A stretch of 64,000 nt of DNA from Streptomyces sp. NBC_01231 (GTDB taxonomy: Bacteria > Actinomycetota > Actinomycetes > Streptomycetales > Streptomycetaceae), in NCBI GenBank assembly GCA_035999765.1, contig CP108521.1:3410001-3474000 (forward strand). The letters are read 5' to 3'. Numbering within the stretch: position 1 is the stretch's first letter; every line of letters starts with the position of its first letter. Position numbers and translations under genes: made by a program. The notes below the pieces were generated by a model. The model searched no databases and was not told the DNA's origin. It worked only from the letters and a program-made list of their open reading frames with translations. Below, piece by piece: positions 1-8,625 of the stretch.

Positions 1-407
1 AGATCGGCTCCGTGGAGTCTCTGGCCGTCTGTCCGGGAGACGAAGAGGGCGAGTTGTTTCTGGCAGCGGGGGGGACCGACGGCACCGTACGTCTGTGGGC
101 GCCAGATGCTCCCGAGAGGGAGCCGTTCACGCTGACGACCCGGCACGACGGACCCGTATCCGCCCTCGGTATCGTCCGGACTGCCCAGGCCCGCCCTCAC
201 ATCGTGAGCGCCGGCCTCAGGGACACGACCGTGCGCCTGTCAGACTCGCGCACCGGGGAAGAGGTGCTTCGCCTGATTACCGCCGCCTCCCTGACTTCCC
301 TCAGCGTCCTGCCGCCCCACAGCGTCTCGGGCTCATCACAGCCCTTGATCGCTTTCGGTGGCCCGGCCGGGATCGCTACAGTGTCGCTGCGTCTGGGAGA
401 GTCCTAG
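1..407 (+). CDS. WD40-repeat protein, C-terminal fragment (5' end outside window)
   Basis: The frame is open from the left edge (codons from base 3) and stops with TAG at 405-407, so about 134 C-terminal residues are visible. WD40 blades can be seen: one ends in GGTDGTVRLWAP, a second in DTTVRLSDSRTGEE, and a closing strand reads ATVSLRL. WD40 propellers are binding platforms; in Streptomyces a C-terminal propeller like this often belongs to a large multidomain protein with a STAND-type NTPase, caspase or trypsin-like N-terminus. That N-terminus lies outside the window, so the class is inference. It is on the same strand as the Cascade operon that begins about 1.1 kb downstream. A GTG at base 12 is in frame but is probably internal. 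Confidence 0.75.
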   Translation, partial: IGSVESLAVCPGDEEGELFLAAGGTDGTVRLWAPDAPEREPFTLTTRHDGPVSALGIVRTAQARPHIVSAGLRDTTVRLSDSRTGEEVLRLITAASLTSLSVLPPHSVSGSSQPLIAFGGPAGIATVSLRLGES

Positions 408-569
408 GAGCATCCCACGGGGCAGAGTAGAAATCACTAGTCACCTACCGTCAGCCGCCTACGACTGGCTCACCGCCTTGGCCGCGAGTCCAGCTGCTCC
501 GCACCGCGGAGATGGCCCTTGTGGCGACTGTAGAGGCATGGCCCCCGCAGAGCGGGGATCACGGCTTGT
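407..569. other. short intergenic stretch between convergent genes
   Basis: The WD40 gene ends at 407 on the plus strand and the next gene ends at 569 on the minus strand. I see no convincing gene or clear U-tract terminator here. Confidence 0.4.
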
Positions 570-1465
570 CACCCAGCCACGCGCATACGTGAGACCGCAT
601 CCCTTGCGTGGGACCGCGCTCGCTCCGTCATCGCCTCCAAGGTGTCGTAAGGCGACGCGAAGCCGCGAGAAGCGTCCCCGCGGGAAAGGCCGTTGCTTTG
701 GGAGACCAAACGACCGAAAGCGGTCAGACGATTGGGATCGGTTGGCCCGATCAGGTGGGGAAGCCTCCTTGCGTCGATGCCGACATGGTGGGCGACGGCA
801 TCGACCATCGCGATCCGGACCGCATCCCAGGCGGGACCGCCGGTCGCCCGGTAGGCCTTGGCGACAGTGTCGGCGTGCAGAACGTCAGCGCCGTGCCGGT
901 TGAGCGCATAGGCGGCCGAGTAGAGGCCTTGGTGGTTCTGATCGCGGCACCGCTCACCGTCGACGTACCCCACGCAGTTGCAACCGATCAGCCGTGGCAG
1001 CACCGCTGCCGTAAGGTGCTCCGGATCCGCATGACGGACCCGGGCTGCGGACCGTGGCAGCGGAAGCCCTGCCCGCAGGGCCTGCTCCTGCCACTCCGCG
1101 CGAGCCCTGTCCAATGCGGGAGATAACCGTTGCATCGCACCGAAGGCAGCCATGTGTGCTGGGCTGGCGTGACCGAGACGACTCACCCCCGCCAAGGAGG
1201 CGGCCGCCAGGCGGGCGCTCGGCTCGTCCTTGGCCGCGAAAGCCTTCGTGAGGTCGGTGCGTTGCTCTGGGCTCAGCACCTGTTCCCACAGTTCGAGCAT
1301 CACGGAAGCAGCGGTGAGCATCTCAACGATGAGCGGATTCCACACGCGTCCTGTGAGATCGATCGTCCCCCAACACCATTTATACGCACTACTGTTGAGT
1401 TCTGCTGATTCATTCACATTGCCCTCATCCGGCGTGCTACGGTCCTGCCGCATCTCATCAGACAA
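569..1465 (-). CDS. unrecognised protein with a Cys/His cluster, divergent from casA
   Basis: I do not recognise this family. The frame encodes 298 aa from a TTG at 1465; an in-frame ATG at 1451-1453 (294 aa) is equally possible. The sequence is mainly helical, with Ala/Arg-rich stretches. A possible metal-binding cluster reads GCNCVGYVDGERCRDQNH, that is C-x-C-x9-C with a nearby His. No signal peptide or membrane segment is visible. It starts only about 25 nt from the GTG of casA and runs the opposite way, so the two promoters must overlap or lie inside each other's 5' ends. That makes a functional link with the Cascade operon possible but unproven. Codon use is slightly less G+C-extreme than in the right half of the window, as for the cas genes. 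Confidence 0.65.
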   Translation of the reverse strand: MSDEMRQDRSTPDEGNVNESAELNSSAYKWCWGTIDLTGRVWNPLIVEMLTAASVMLELWEQVLSPEQRTDLTKAFAAKDEPSARLAAASLAGVSRLGHASPAHMAAFGAMQRLSPALDRARAEWQEQALRAGLPLPRSAARVRHADPEHLTAAVLPRLIGCNCVGYVDGERCRDQNHQGLYSAAYALNRHGADVLHADTVAKAYRATGGPAWDAVRIAMVDAVAHHVGIDARRLPHLIGPTDPNRLTAFGRLVSQSNGLSRGDASRGFASPYDTLEAMTERARSHARDAVSRMRVAG

Positions 1466-5867: not shown

Positions 5868-6583
5868 CCAAGCCGCCCGCTTCAGCCCGCTTCGTCGCCA
5901 CACACAGCATCCTCACGATGGACGCTCGGCACCCGTACACCGCCAAGTCTCTCGTCGACGCCCAGGACATGCACCGCACGGTCATGAGCGGCTTCCGGGG
6001 CTGGGTCGAAGACGGCAACGCCGATGCCCGCGCCCAAATGGGAGTGCTGTCCACCTGGTCCGTCGATCTGAAGGCAGGCGCGCTCGTCCTAGTCGTGCAG
6101 TCCAAAGTGCCAGGGGACTGGGCGGGCATGCCCCGCGGGGCACTCACCGACAAACCACACGTGATCACGGTCGACCGCACGTTCCGCACCGGCGACTCTC
6201 TCACCTTCCGAACAGTCGTCAACCCCACTCACAGCCGAACATCCGGGCCGCCGGCTCCAGACCGCCCCCGCGGTCGGCGCACCGCTCACACCCGTCCCGA
6301 CCACGTGAAGAACTGGTTCATACGCCGTCTCCAGCTACCCGGCGAGCCACGCAAAGGTCCTGACGGCGTCACCCGCATCGGCGCCACCGCCGAGGCGGAG
6401 ACCCTGGCCGTCCGGATGCTTCCCACCGTCACAAGCGCGGGCCCGCACAGAGGTCTGCGCATCGTCCGCGCAGAAATCCGGGGCACGCTCACGGTCACTG
6501 ATCCTTCCGCCCTAGTAGACGCGATGACCCAGGGCATCGGACATGGACGGGCGTACGGCTGCGGACTTCTGCTCACGCGGTGA
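5864..6583 (+). CDS. cas6e: crRNA-processing endoribonuclease Cas6e (CasE)
   Basis: Cas6e cuts the repeat hairpin to make mature crRNA and stays in Cascade. Two starts are possible, ATG at 5849 and GTG at 5864. I prefer 5864 because it repeats the 4-nt GTGA overlap of all other junctions, giving 239 aa. The glycine-rich loop [13 protein letters not shown] near the C-terminus is the family signature. His37 (in DAQDMHRTV) sits where the catalytic His of CasE is expected after the first strand, so the enzyme looks intact. The usual cas1 and cas2 do not follow; the first CRISPR repeat begins 15 nt after the stop, so array and operon may share a transcript. Confidence 0.92.
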
Positions 6584-6598
6584 GCGTCCTTGACTAAC

Positions 6599-8625
6599 CA
6601 ATACCTCGCACCCGCGGGGATGGTCCCGACATTCGCCGCCCTGGTTACATTGACGTCGTGTGCTCCCCGCACCTGCGGGGACGGTACCTCGATCGTGGCG
6701 CGCCCGTGGTCGTCAAAGCAGTGCTCCCCGCACCCGCGGGGATGGCCCCCAGACCGGCTGGGCCTTCAAGGACCGTGTCGTGTGCTCCCCGCACCCGCGG
6801 GGATTGGTCCCCGTCAGTCCGTCGTCGGTGGTGTAGCCGACGGGTGCTCCCCTCACCCGCAGGGGTGGTCCCGGCATTCGCCGCCCTGGTTACATTGACG
6901 CCGTGTGGTGCCCACACCCGTGGGGATGGTCCCGCGAAACGCCCGCTGCACCCGTACCTGCACAAGTGCTCCCTGCACCCGCGGGGATGCCCCCTCGGGC
7001 TCCTTTAGAAGGATCGCCTCGACCTCGTGCTCCCCGCACCTGCGGGGATGACCCCTTCGAGCGGGGCGCGCTCACCTTCCGCGCCGAGTGCTCCCTGCAC
7101 CCTCGGGGATGGTCCCTTCACCTGGCCCTCCTTTTGCGTGTACTCCAAGTACTCCCCGCACCCGCGGGAATGGTCACGGCCGCTTCGAGATCCTTTTCGG
7201 GAACCAGGCGTGCTCCCCGCGCCCGCAGGGATGGTCCCGACGTCTACTGGGCCACCTCCCGCTTGGAAGGGTGCTCCCCGCACCCGGTCTCGTCGGCGCA
7301 GCTTCTGCGGCCTCCCCGGATACGTGCTTCCCGCACCTGCGGGATGGTCCCAACACGGCGCTCGGATACGGCCTGCTGGAAAGGTGCTCCCCGCAACCGC
7401 GGGGATGGTCCCGCGGGGACGGGCATCCGGCTGACGGCGGGTGTGCGCTCCCCGCAAGCGCGGGGATGGTCCCGCGCTCGGCGGTCCGGGCTCCCTCGTC
7501 TGGTAGTGCTCCCCGGCAGCGGGGATGGTCCCACCATGGAAGCCTGGATCCCGGAGCAGTACGAGTGCTCCCCGCATCCGCGGGGATGGTCCCCTCTACT
7601 GGGCGTCCATTCCCGAATGGTTCGAGTGCTCCCCGCACCTGCGGGGATTGTCCCTTGGGTAGCCCCCGCGGGTGATTCCTGACGTCGTGCGCCCTGCACC
7701 CGCGAGGATCGTCCCATGCCTCCGTCGAGGAGCCACAGGAGCCGGTGGTGCTCCCCCGCACCCGCGGGATGGTCCCGGCCGTCAGTGCGGCTTCAAGAGA
7801 GGTTGTCCGTGCTCCCCGGGCCAGCGGGGATGGTCCCTTCGAGCGGGGCGCGCTCACCTTCCGCGCCGAGTGCTCCCTGAAGCCTCGGGGATGGTCCCGC
7901 CTCGCCGCACTCCTCCGTGAGGATCTGCCGGTGCTCCCCGCGCCCGCGGGGATGGCCCCTGGTACCCGGCGGACCATCCGGTGGCGGTCCGGTGCTCCCT
8001 GCGCCCGCAGGGATGGTCTCGAACACGCGAAGGCAGCCGCCGCCGACCGAAAGTGCTCCCCGGACCCGCGGGGATGGTCCCCAGAACGCGCGACGGTCCG
8101 GGACCGGGCTCGCGTGCTCCCCGCAACCGCGGGGATGGTCCCTGGTGCCAGGTGGTCCGCGACGCCATGGTGGAGTGCTCCCCGCACCCGCGGGGATGGT
8201 CCCGACGTCGACCAGCCGTCCATGGACGGGCAGTTGCGCTCCCCGCGCCCGCGGGGATGGTCCTTACTCGGAGCGGTTCCTTGAGGACTTCCCCACGTGC
8301 TCCCCGCGCCCGCGGGGATGGTCCCCTGACCCAGTCCGACGTCTGCGGCCGGTCGGGGTACTCCCCGCACCCGCGGGGATGGTCCCACGCAGCATCACGC
8401 GCGCCCGGAGTTCGAGGCGTGCTCCCCGCACTCTCGGGGATGGTCGCGACCAGGGCGCCGCGGGCCGCATGGCGGCCGTGTGCTCCCCGCACCCGCGGGG
8501 ATGGTGGTCCCAGGACGATGGCGATGGTGCCGGTGGCCACAGTGTGCTCCCCCGCGCCCGCAGGGATGGCCCCCGGCTGCCTGGCCCCCGACCACGGTCG
8601 GATCCCGTGCTCACCGCAGCCGTCG
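6599..8625 (+). CRISPR. Type I-E CRISPR array, 34 diverged repeats and 33 spacers
   Basis: 29-nt repeats recur every 61 nt with 32-nt spacers. The majority repeat starts GTGCTCCCCGC, has loop ACCC, then GCGGGGATGGTCCC; the stem is CCCCGC/GCGGGG. Repeat starts: 6599, 6660, 6721, 6782, 6844, 6905, 6966, 7027, 7088, 7149, 7210, 7271, 7324, 7384, 7445, 7506, 7565, 7626, 7687, 7748, 7809, 7870, 7931, 7992, 8053, 8114, 8175, 8236, 8297, 8358, 8419, 8480, 8544, 8607. Only the copy at 8175-8203 matches the majority exactly. The first (6599) has lost its 5' five bases, 7271 is truncated after 16 nt, 8480 carries a 3-nt insertion, and 8607 decays after about 19 nt. Spacers 7056-7087 and 7838-7869 are identical; 6628-6659 and 6873-6904 differ at two positions. 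The repeats read in the same direction as the cas operon. There is no AT-rich leader. Confidence 0.97.

Follow-up and report, generated by a model that had tools for sequence, protein, structure and literature searches.

The stretch analysed here, 64,000 nucleotides from Streptomyces sp. NBC_01231 (C1:3410001-3474000, C1 being the contig of an 11.34-Mb one-contig genome; hereafter the window), begins inside a CRISPR locus in which a type I-E Cascade operon is preceded by three further genes: a divergent gene for a Cas3 protein reduced to its HD domain (Cas3''), the gene of a STAND NTPase that has a caspase-like domain at its N-terminus and a WD40 part at its C-terminus, and that of an alpha/beta-hydrolase. 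Judging from sequence comparisons, the locus would be an RNA-guided trigger for the STAND-caspase effector, a reading to which a probability of about 0.6 is given. Its more specific form, in which the DNA-targeting Cascade would be the ligand of a bacterial apoptosome and the catalysis-free HD domain an adaptor signalling phage detection to the caspase-STAND-WD40 protein and its partner lipase, stands about even. The lost HD motif and the partner genes are, as far as the literature was searched, previously undescribed.

The HD-only Cas3'' and its conserved neighbours

The HD-only protein matches PF18019 at 30 bits (cut-off 23.1) and the PADLOC model Cas3HD at 352 bits, whose text reads 'helicase domain is absent in these systems'; since PADLOC already holds such a model, the HD-only protein family has been seen before. 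In an alignment with eight full-length Cas3 proteins, the short proteins of the five loci described below stop where the helicase starts, and five HD-motif residues (the first His, both of the HD pair, the first His of the HH pair and the last Asp) are replaced in all five of them, whereas all eight full-length proteins retain these residues. The latter have a first His (such as PLLAH), an LHDLGK-like HD, GGHHG and a last Asp (SDW, ADW, ADR), and the short proteins PL[IV][VAF]E, GVSR.G, LN[RTQ][HQ] and [SA]Q at the corresponding positions; the change of HD to SR is also visible against solved Cas3 proteins. The HD-only Cas3'' is thus probably catalytically dead, and an active HD nuclease was rejected because the key motif residues are replaced. 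Canonical type I-E interference relies on an active HD nuclease and a helicase; here the helicase is absent and the five motif residues are replaced in 5/5 loci. Profile scans detected no nuclease domain other than HD in the eight genes of the locus, and with no nuclease Cascade could mark DNA but not destroy it. The ratio of non-synonymous to synonymous substitution rates (dN/dS) of the HD-only gene is 0.20-0.28 (six pairs among four loci), so the domain that lost its HD motif is under purifying selection.

The Cascade is assigned to subtype I-E by cas8e, cas11e, cas7e, cas5e and cas6e, which follow one another in this order with an array adjoining (Pfam, PADLOC). These five genes and the large array had been pointed out in an original prediction made from the letters of the window, and both Pfam and the 33 repeats of the array bear it out, as do searches of the genome with PF01867 and PF09707, which found neither Cas1 nor Cas2 in the window, for its statement that cas1 and cas2 are missing there. 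The cas1-cas2 adaptation module of a canonical I-E locus is accordingly lacking. The prediction had also placed a WD40 C-terminus about 1.1 kb upstream of Cascade on the same strand, correctly (it ends at 407, and cas8e starts at 1491), and reading upstream for a STAND or caspase domain, as it advised, led to a STAND NTPase whose sequence opens with a caspase-like domain and ends in WD40. Its statement that there is no HD Cas3 does not hold, the HD-only gene between the WD40 gene and cas8e having been missed. Comparison between loci strongly backs its inference of a STAND/WD40 effector that target-bound Cascade may trigger, the part that stands being a caspase-STAND-WD40 protein conserved beside Cascade; the dead HD Cas3'' and the hydrolase had been overlooked. 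An ordinary WD40 kinase upstream was rejected, the gene being a caspase-STAND gene kept beside Cascade in relatives.

HD-only genes are rare: of 392 genomes sampled from the genus only three have one, and 151 of 392 have a Cas7e. Sixteen genomes gave matches in this HD search: three HD-only, seven with full-Cas3 loci that were fetched, and six weaker ones that were left out. Among 394 genomes sampled from the class there were three matches, the own genome at 352 bits and two partial ones at 20-21 bits, taken as chance. Viral contigs (in a pattern-based scan) and phage records held no HD-only relative. With named records beyond the genus sample included, five distinct loci were obtained: the present one, in a prophage cargo slot of the NBC_01231 chromosome; those of Streptomyces sp. 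NRRL B-24085 (L024/L026; genome G201) and S. acidiscabies NRRL B-16521 (L027); and two on plasmids of Streptomyces sp. NBC_01591 (L090) and Streptomyces sp. NBC_01460 (sampled genome G052), the last with the layout of NBC_00111 and largely identical protein accessions. On plasmids, on chromosomes and here in the cargo slot, all five keep the eight genes in unchanged order: hydrolase, caspase-STAND-WD40, HD (reversed) and cas8e-11-7-5-6. Identity to the window locus is 62-88% for the Cascade proteins, 60-75% for HD, 59-78% for the hydrolase and 44-70% for STAND. The phage genes flanking the window locus have no match around the other four loci, and prophage structural genes were rejected as components of the system, since they flank the locus in this genome only.

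In seven further Streptomyces loci, whose Cascade is a related one (38-59% identity), a full-length Cas3 occupies this divergent position, and neither the hydrolase nor STAND was matched in the 18-20 kb around any of them. The comparison of gene order among Streptomyces that had been proposed in the original prediction came out in its favour, with the caspase-STAND gene beside the HD-only Cascade in 5/5 loci and none near the 7/7 full-Cas3 loci.

The caspase-STAND-WD40 protein and the hydrolase

The caspase-like domain takes up residues 16-180 of the 1471-aa protein and is followed by the NTPase and then by WD40 propellers. It matches the NCBIfam caspase family NF047832 with E 1e-16 at 61 bits, below the curated cut-off of 140. 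NF047832 matches 12/12 aligned relatives at E 0.01 or better, and Pfam C14 matches 5/12 at E up to 1, with E 0.02 for the protein discussed here. The caspase dyad (His-Gly, Asp-x-Cys), H91 and C141, is invariant in all 12 aligned relatives; by this dyad the protein belongs to the caspase family (C14-like), and proteolysis is predicted. Matches to AAA_16 (50 bits, cut-off 32.6), nSTAND1 (28.7, cut-off 27.1) and WD40 (48.5, cut-off 27) mark it as a STAND NTPase, with Walker A present in 13/13 aligned STAND proteins, and the domain order by itself would predict ligand-triggered oligomerisation of the Apaf-1/Avs kind. The Ser and His of the hydrolase are invariant in 11/11 aligned proteins, and the enzyme is a probable lipase or esterase. 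Profiles of the caspase and of the hydrolase matched no PDB sequence, and PADLOC gave no match for the window's STAND protein at E 0.01; in all, the two STAND proteins scanned from the caspase-STAND-WD40 family had no PADLOC match. For six pairs among four loci, dN/dS is 0.18-0.22 for the hydrolase, 0.27-0.31 for STAND and 0.09-0.26 for the cas genes.

The domains of the window protein were compared with those of four Cascade-linked copies and of six stand-alone copies, the latter being those with frames near full length among 12 stand-alone loci. The identities in WD40/caspase are 69/63, 70/62, 55/57 and 49/44% for the linked copies and 44/47, 35/47, 24/42, 21/42, 22/36 and 21/43% for the stand-alone ones. 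WD40 is better conserved than caspase in three of the four linked copies and slightly less in one, whereas in all six stand-alone copies it falls below caspase, being the least conserved segment in five. Such a pattern is as expected if WD40 senses a partner common only to the linked copies.

Proposed mechanism and alternatives

In the favoured reading, that of an RNA-guided trigger, Cas6e would make CRISPR RNAs from both arrays and Cascade would bind matching DNA, both activities being likely because all five subunits are intact and conserved. The target would not be handed over to a Cas3 of the locus itself, given the absent helicase and the replaced HD-motif residues. The dead HD domain would dock on target-bound Cas8e and act as an adaptor; to judge from known structures, it may carry part of the Cas3-Cas8e contact. 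Cas3 is recruited by the Cse1/Cas8e subunit once the R-loop has formed, according to passages of PMC7074321. The WD40 propeller of the STAND NTPase would then recognise the complex of target-bound Cascade and dead HD, the NTPase would oligomerise, and the N-terminal caspase domain would become active, a chain of sensing, oligomerisation and activation modelled on other STAND sensors and on the Apaf-1 apoptosome. The hydrolase may act with the caspase, as a second effector or as a substrate, and execute or amplify the damage, and the outcome would be death or dormancy of the infected cell instead of DNA shredding. All the steps after Cascade binding are ones that we infer. In the VMAP conflict systems every caspase domain has an alpha/beta-hydrolase gene next to it (passages of PMC7159879); on account of this partnership elsewhere, together with the WD40 pattern, the model of a caspase under a WD40 sensor is favoured.

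Several observations weigh against the trigger reading. The second His of the HH pair is left in four of the five short HD proteins, as is a nearby His in an ITA motif, also in four of five, so that some residual metal binding is possible; the HD-motif residues are what we take to be the metal ligands. An AlphaFold2 model of the HD-only protein from three sequences reached a predicted local distance difference test score of 38 and was not used. The WD40 argument draws on four linked and six stand-alone copies in which distance is confounded with linkage, and among copies with a similar caspase identity (44-47%) WD40 differs little, 49% in the linked copy and 44 and 35% in the stand-alone ones; WD40 lies slightly below caspase in one linked copy, and the linker drops too. 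The five loci form one clade, so their linkage counts as a single event that has been retained and not as a recurrent one. The S. acidiscabies copy, whose cas7e is interrupted by the insertion of a transposase gene and which has no recognised array in the fetched stretch, is probably decaying. An intact full-length Cas3 (972 aa) is encoded at C1:10994439, in a separate I-E locus of the same genome. The gene-proximal repeats of the arrays are degenerate, the array 2 spacers gave no phage match, and Streptomyces phages are matched weakly (E 0.006-0.02) by three array 1 spacers and by two from the NRRL B-24085 array (queried over L024:17300-20000 only). Array 1 also matches a Gordonia phage at E 0.05, partly over the repeat, and a 2-kb coding control gave four records at E 0.05, from Mycobacterium and Gordonia phages; phage targeting by the spacers is suggestive only.

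Among the other explanations, the one that survives best, unlikely as it is, makes the STAND-caspase protein a guard, which would watch Cascade (or its inhibition by phage) and kill the cell if Cascade were disabled. Conserved linkage and conserved WD40 fit a guard equally well, and STAND proteins often sense viral or self proteins. A nuclease-free Cascade, however, offers scant protection of its own and would hardly be worth inhibiting for a phage, and the retention of the HD domain, part of the Cas3 step, would be left unexplained.

It is quite unlikely that Cascade is a DNA-binding repressor and the STAND-hydrolase pair a separate defence module in the same island. The pair does occur alone: a hydrolase relative is present in 178 of 372 genomes of the genus, and at 12 loci outside CRISPR, fetched as high scorers from these 178 genomes, a STAND match adjoins the hydrolase in every case (weak, 25-31%, at L086, L088 and L089), and none of the 12 has a Cascade or HD match. 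The cargo slot, too, holds unrelated cargo in other prophages. Mere neighbourhood is nevertheless hard to reconcile with an order and orientation kept exactly in 5/5 loci with differing surroundings and Cascade identities down to 62-79%, or with the pair's presence in 0/7 of the full-Cas3 relatives, in the stretches fetched. The pair's occurrence alone in 12/12 loci also counts in favour of the trigger reading, as Cascade appears to have captured a pre-existing module, and since four Cascade-linked hydrolases form one clade (99/99; NBC_01591 was left out of the tree), it did so once. One of the 12 stand-alone hydrolase/caspase-STAND-WD40 pairs belongs to the NBC_01231 genome itself (L079, C1:11026894-11032232; hydrolase locus C1:11026909).

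Very unlikely is a Cascade that uses a full-length Cas3 from elsewhere in the genome for ordinary interference, the STAND pair being a neighbour in a defence island. The intact Cas3 mentioned above would permit it, but the repeat of its own locus is a different one and the Cascade there is only distantly related. Searches of three of the four other hosts, all but that of the NBC_01591 plasmid, turned up no full Cas3 of I-E type: the best match in G201 is a generic helicase score of 19.8 bits, G052 has none, and the one full Cas3 of S. acidiscabies, an assembly of unstated completeness, lies in an I-C-like-looking locus. The HD-only protein, moreover, would probably compete for the docking site. 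The objection foreseen in the original prediction, a matching cas3 elsewhere, falls on the same grounds. Least likely of all is a decaying type I-E relic, stripped of cas1, cas2 and the helicase of Cas3 before its HD active site went too, for although the locus has no cas1 or cas2, broken cas1-cas2 remnants lie elsewhere, repeats are degenerate and cas7e is split in S. acidiscabies, dN/dS is 0.09-0.31 for all eight genes among four loci, whose frames are intact and two of which have long arrays.

Relatives, known systems and genomic setting

A second Cas3-less group, clade A, came from the 151 genomes with Cas7e, of which 16 low scorers were chosen by eye and 12 loci fetched: nine of clade A type (eight full, one partial), two of TnsB/TnsC type and one other. 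In the nine clade A loci Cascade lies beside a different large protein, and there was no match to Cas3, HD or the hydrolase. Two of these proteins, when scanned, match PADLOC STAND_TPR (PDLC01173) at 929 and 1131 bits, with the label 'associated with cas1-less I-E system in Streptomyces'. Beside the STAND gene a small one-helix membrane protein is encoded in 8/8 full clade A loci (L126-L132, L134); it was found in 0/5 loci of the HD-only clade (tblastn E 0.01). The label and the small membrane protein identify clade A as the variant described from Shmakov 2018, a minimal Streptomyces I-E variant beside STAND NTPases and small membrane proteins according to passages of PMC12231136 and PMC8730458. 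That Cas3-less Streptomyces I-E systems near STAND proteins had already been reported, as the original prediction stated, is therefore true of the sister clade. A tree of Cas7e/Cas5e/Cas6e unites each of the two Cas3-less groups as a clade and makes them sisters (100/100), and the Cas3-bearing loci fall outside both. The simplest history compatible with these sequences would be that the helicase was lost once, one branch then taking an HTH-STAND-TPR protein and the other keeping the dead HD and capturing the caspase module.

The two variants have in common a Cascade from one lineage that lacks Cas3 and cas1 and adjoins a STAND NTPase. The STAND protein of the STAND_TPR variant, however, is HTH-NTPase-TPR, with no similarity to the window STAND (tblastn E 1e-4), and the caspase Cys motif is absent from 8/8 of its proteins. 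The variant is worded as array-free in a passage of PMC8730458, whereas the window locus has two arrays of 33 and 41 repeats; some clade A loci do have arrays, unlike that wording. With a different STAND protein present in the sister clade, Cascade looks like a target sensor that can be plugged into various STAND effectors.

Craspase has an RNA target and a type III effector complex, and we know of no STAND NTPase or WD40 sensor in it. A likeness does exist with type III-E Craspase (gRAMP plus a caspase-like peptidase) and with other type III caspase-family effectors, in which an RNA-guided complex controls a caspase-family protease. The bacterial NTPase/caspase conflict systems of Kaur et al. 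2020 (PMC7159879) share with the window locus a caspase with a neighbouring alpha/beta-hydrolase and STAND NTPases; passages of that paper, in which the word CRISPR occurs 9 times, propose an Apaf-1-like logic for them, and none of these passages connects them with a CRISPR Cascade. Cas3-less variants of type I such as I-E2 and I-F4 are alike in having a Cascade that mostly lacks Cas3 and has recruited another effector (passages of PMC12669027 and PMC10910872), but they cut DNA with HNH nuclease fusions, and the profile scans showed no nuclease domain of that sort in the eight genes of the HD-only locus. Passages of the 2025 classification and the 2023 deep-clustering paper mention neither a caspase-STAND nor a dead HD-only I-E system; in the latter paper a figure legend names CHAT, which is a domain of the caspase family, and NACHT as associated with adaptation modules. 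A literature text search from 2019 on, pairing the Cas3 HD domain with caspase, returned no paper.

To our knowledge, a protease-based cell-death output has so far been known for type III systems; if the trigger reading is true, type I CRISPR gains one as well. The route to it would plausibly have been stepwise, from a full Cas3 through loss of the helicase and keeping of the dead HD to the capture of a ready-made caspase module. The hypothesis of cell death or dormancy signalling by Cas3-less Streptomyces Cascades lacks an experimental test according to passages of PMC12231136, and with long arrays, two conserved catalytic sites and laboratory Streptomyces hosts the question of death or dormancy is directly testable here; one such host, S. 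coelicolor M145, is said in PMC12231136 to lack chromosomal CRISPR-Cas. A programmable, DNA-triggered protease, if it is one, would also be a useful tool.

In NBC_01231 the whole island is inserted in a prophage, with the portal gene on one side and the scaffold gene on the other, in a cargo interval from C1:3402369, upstream of the window, to window position 8741 (Table 1). At about 8741, the right edge of the slot, DNA homology to island-free phages ends (junction blastn). The portal-scaffold gap is about 16.4 kb in this genome, against 0.2-1.8 kb in 22 related viral contigs and 6.4 kb in one (23 of 28 being measurable; of the other five, two show no scaffold gene within the fetched 8 kb and three reach the end of their contig first), so the island is here the cargo of a prophage hot spot. 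The CRISPR-caspase module travels as cargo of a prophage here and of plasmids in other loci. The portal-scaffold interval is a cargo hot spot in other members too, which on inspection of the sequence carry apparent type I restriction-modification genes or a cytochrome P450.

Table 1. Features of the locus and its flank. Positions are those of the window unless given on C1; repeats were counted at up to 9 mismatches of 29. ORF, open reading frame.
Feature	Position	Strand	Basis and remarks
Array 2 (second CRISPR array)	C1:3402464-3404945	-	41 repeats at ≤9 mismatches; before hydrolase gene
alpha/beta-hydrolase gene, 288 aa	C1:3405126-3405992	+	ORF; 1-base overlap with start of caspase-STAND-WD40 gene
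Caspase-STAND NTPase-WD40, 1471 aa	starts C1:3405992, ends window 407	+	ORF, Pfam, NCBIfam
C-terminal end of its WD40 propeller	1..407	+	part of the 1471-aa protein within the window
HD-only Cas3''	569..1465	-	likely start 1453 or 1417; divergent from cas8e; PF18019, PADLOC Cas3HD
cas8e (cse1), 528 aa	1491..3077	+	PF09481 E 9.2e-72; start picked by comparing relatives
cas11e (cse2), 201 aa	3074..3679	+	PF09485 E 1.4e-16
cas7e, 448 aa	3676..5022	+	PF09344 E 1.1e-57; GTG start overlaps cas11e stop
cas5e, 282 aa	5019..5867	+	PF09704 E 1e-38
cas6e, 244 aa	5849..6583	+	PF08798 E 9.8e-39
Array 1 (CRISPR array)	6599..8573	+	33 repeats, consensus GTGCTCCCCGCACCCGCGGGGATGGTCCC, period mostly 61
Flanking prophage genes (portal, terminase large subunit)	8741..13143	-	Pfam terminase; PHROGs portal E 7e-14, terminase E 5e-106

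In array 1, whose repeat is presumably of I-E type, 27 of the 32 spacers are 32 nt long and the repeats grow more degenerate toward cas6e. The NRRL B-24085 array has 60 repeats, on one side within the stretch, and the two plasmid loci have short arrays on both sides. In arrays 1 and 2 and in that of NRRL B-24085 (L024 16296-19947) the repeats are more degenerate at the gene-proximal end and closer to perfect at the far end, a gradient that runs opposite to the prediction from the expected leader position. Queried against plasmids, array 1 finds arrays of similar repeat in many Streptomyces plasmids (139 records; not at the level of spacers).

In the NBC_01231 genome cas1 and cas2 were matched only at C1:3336178-3337306, about 73 kb ahead of the window, where cas1 is partial and cas2 is split between frames. 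These, and a cas1 remnant of NRRL B-24085 (L054 8470-9612), which lies about 19 kb beyond cas6e with a partial Cas7e adjoining, are leftovers of another I-E locus. The second I-E locus of NBC_01231 (L004, C1:10985001-11005000), about 0.34 Mb from the sequence end, has TnsB/TnsC-like genes and a different repeat and resembles the published TnsB/TnsC-associated I-E type. A Cas3 fragment with one internal stop (C1:10809791-10811029; Cas3e, 187 bits) lies apart from both CRISPR loci.

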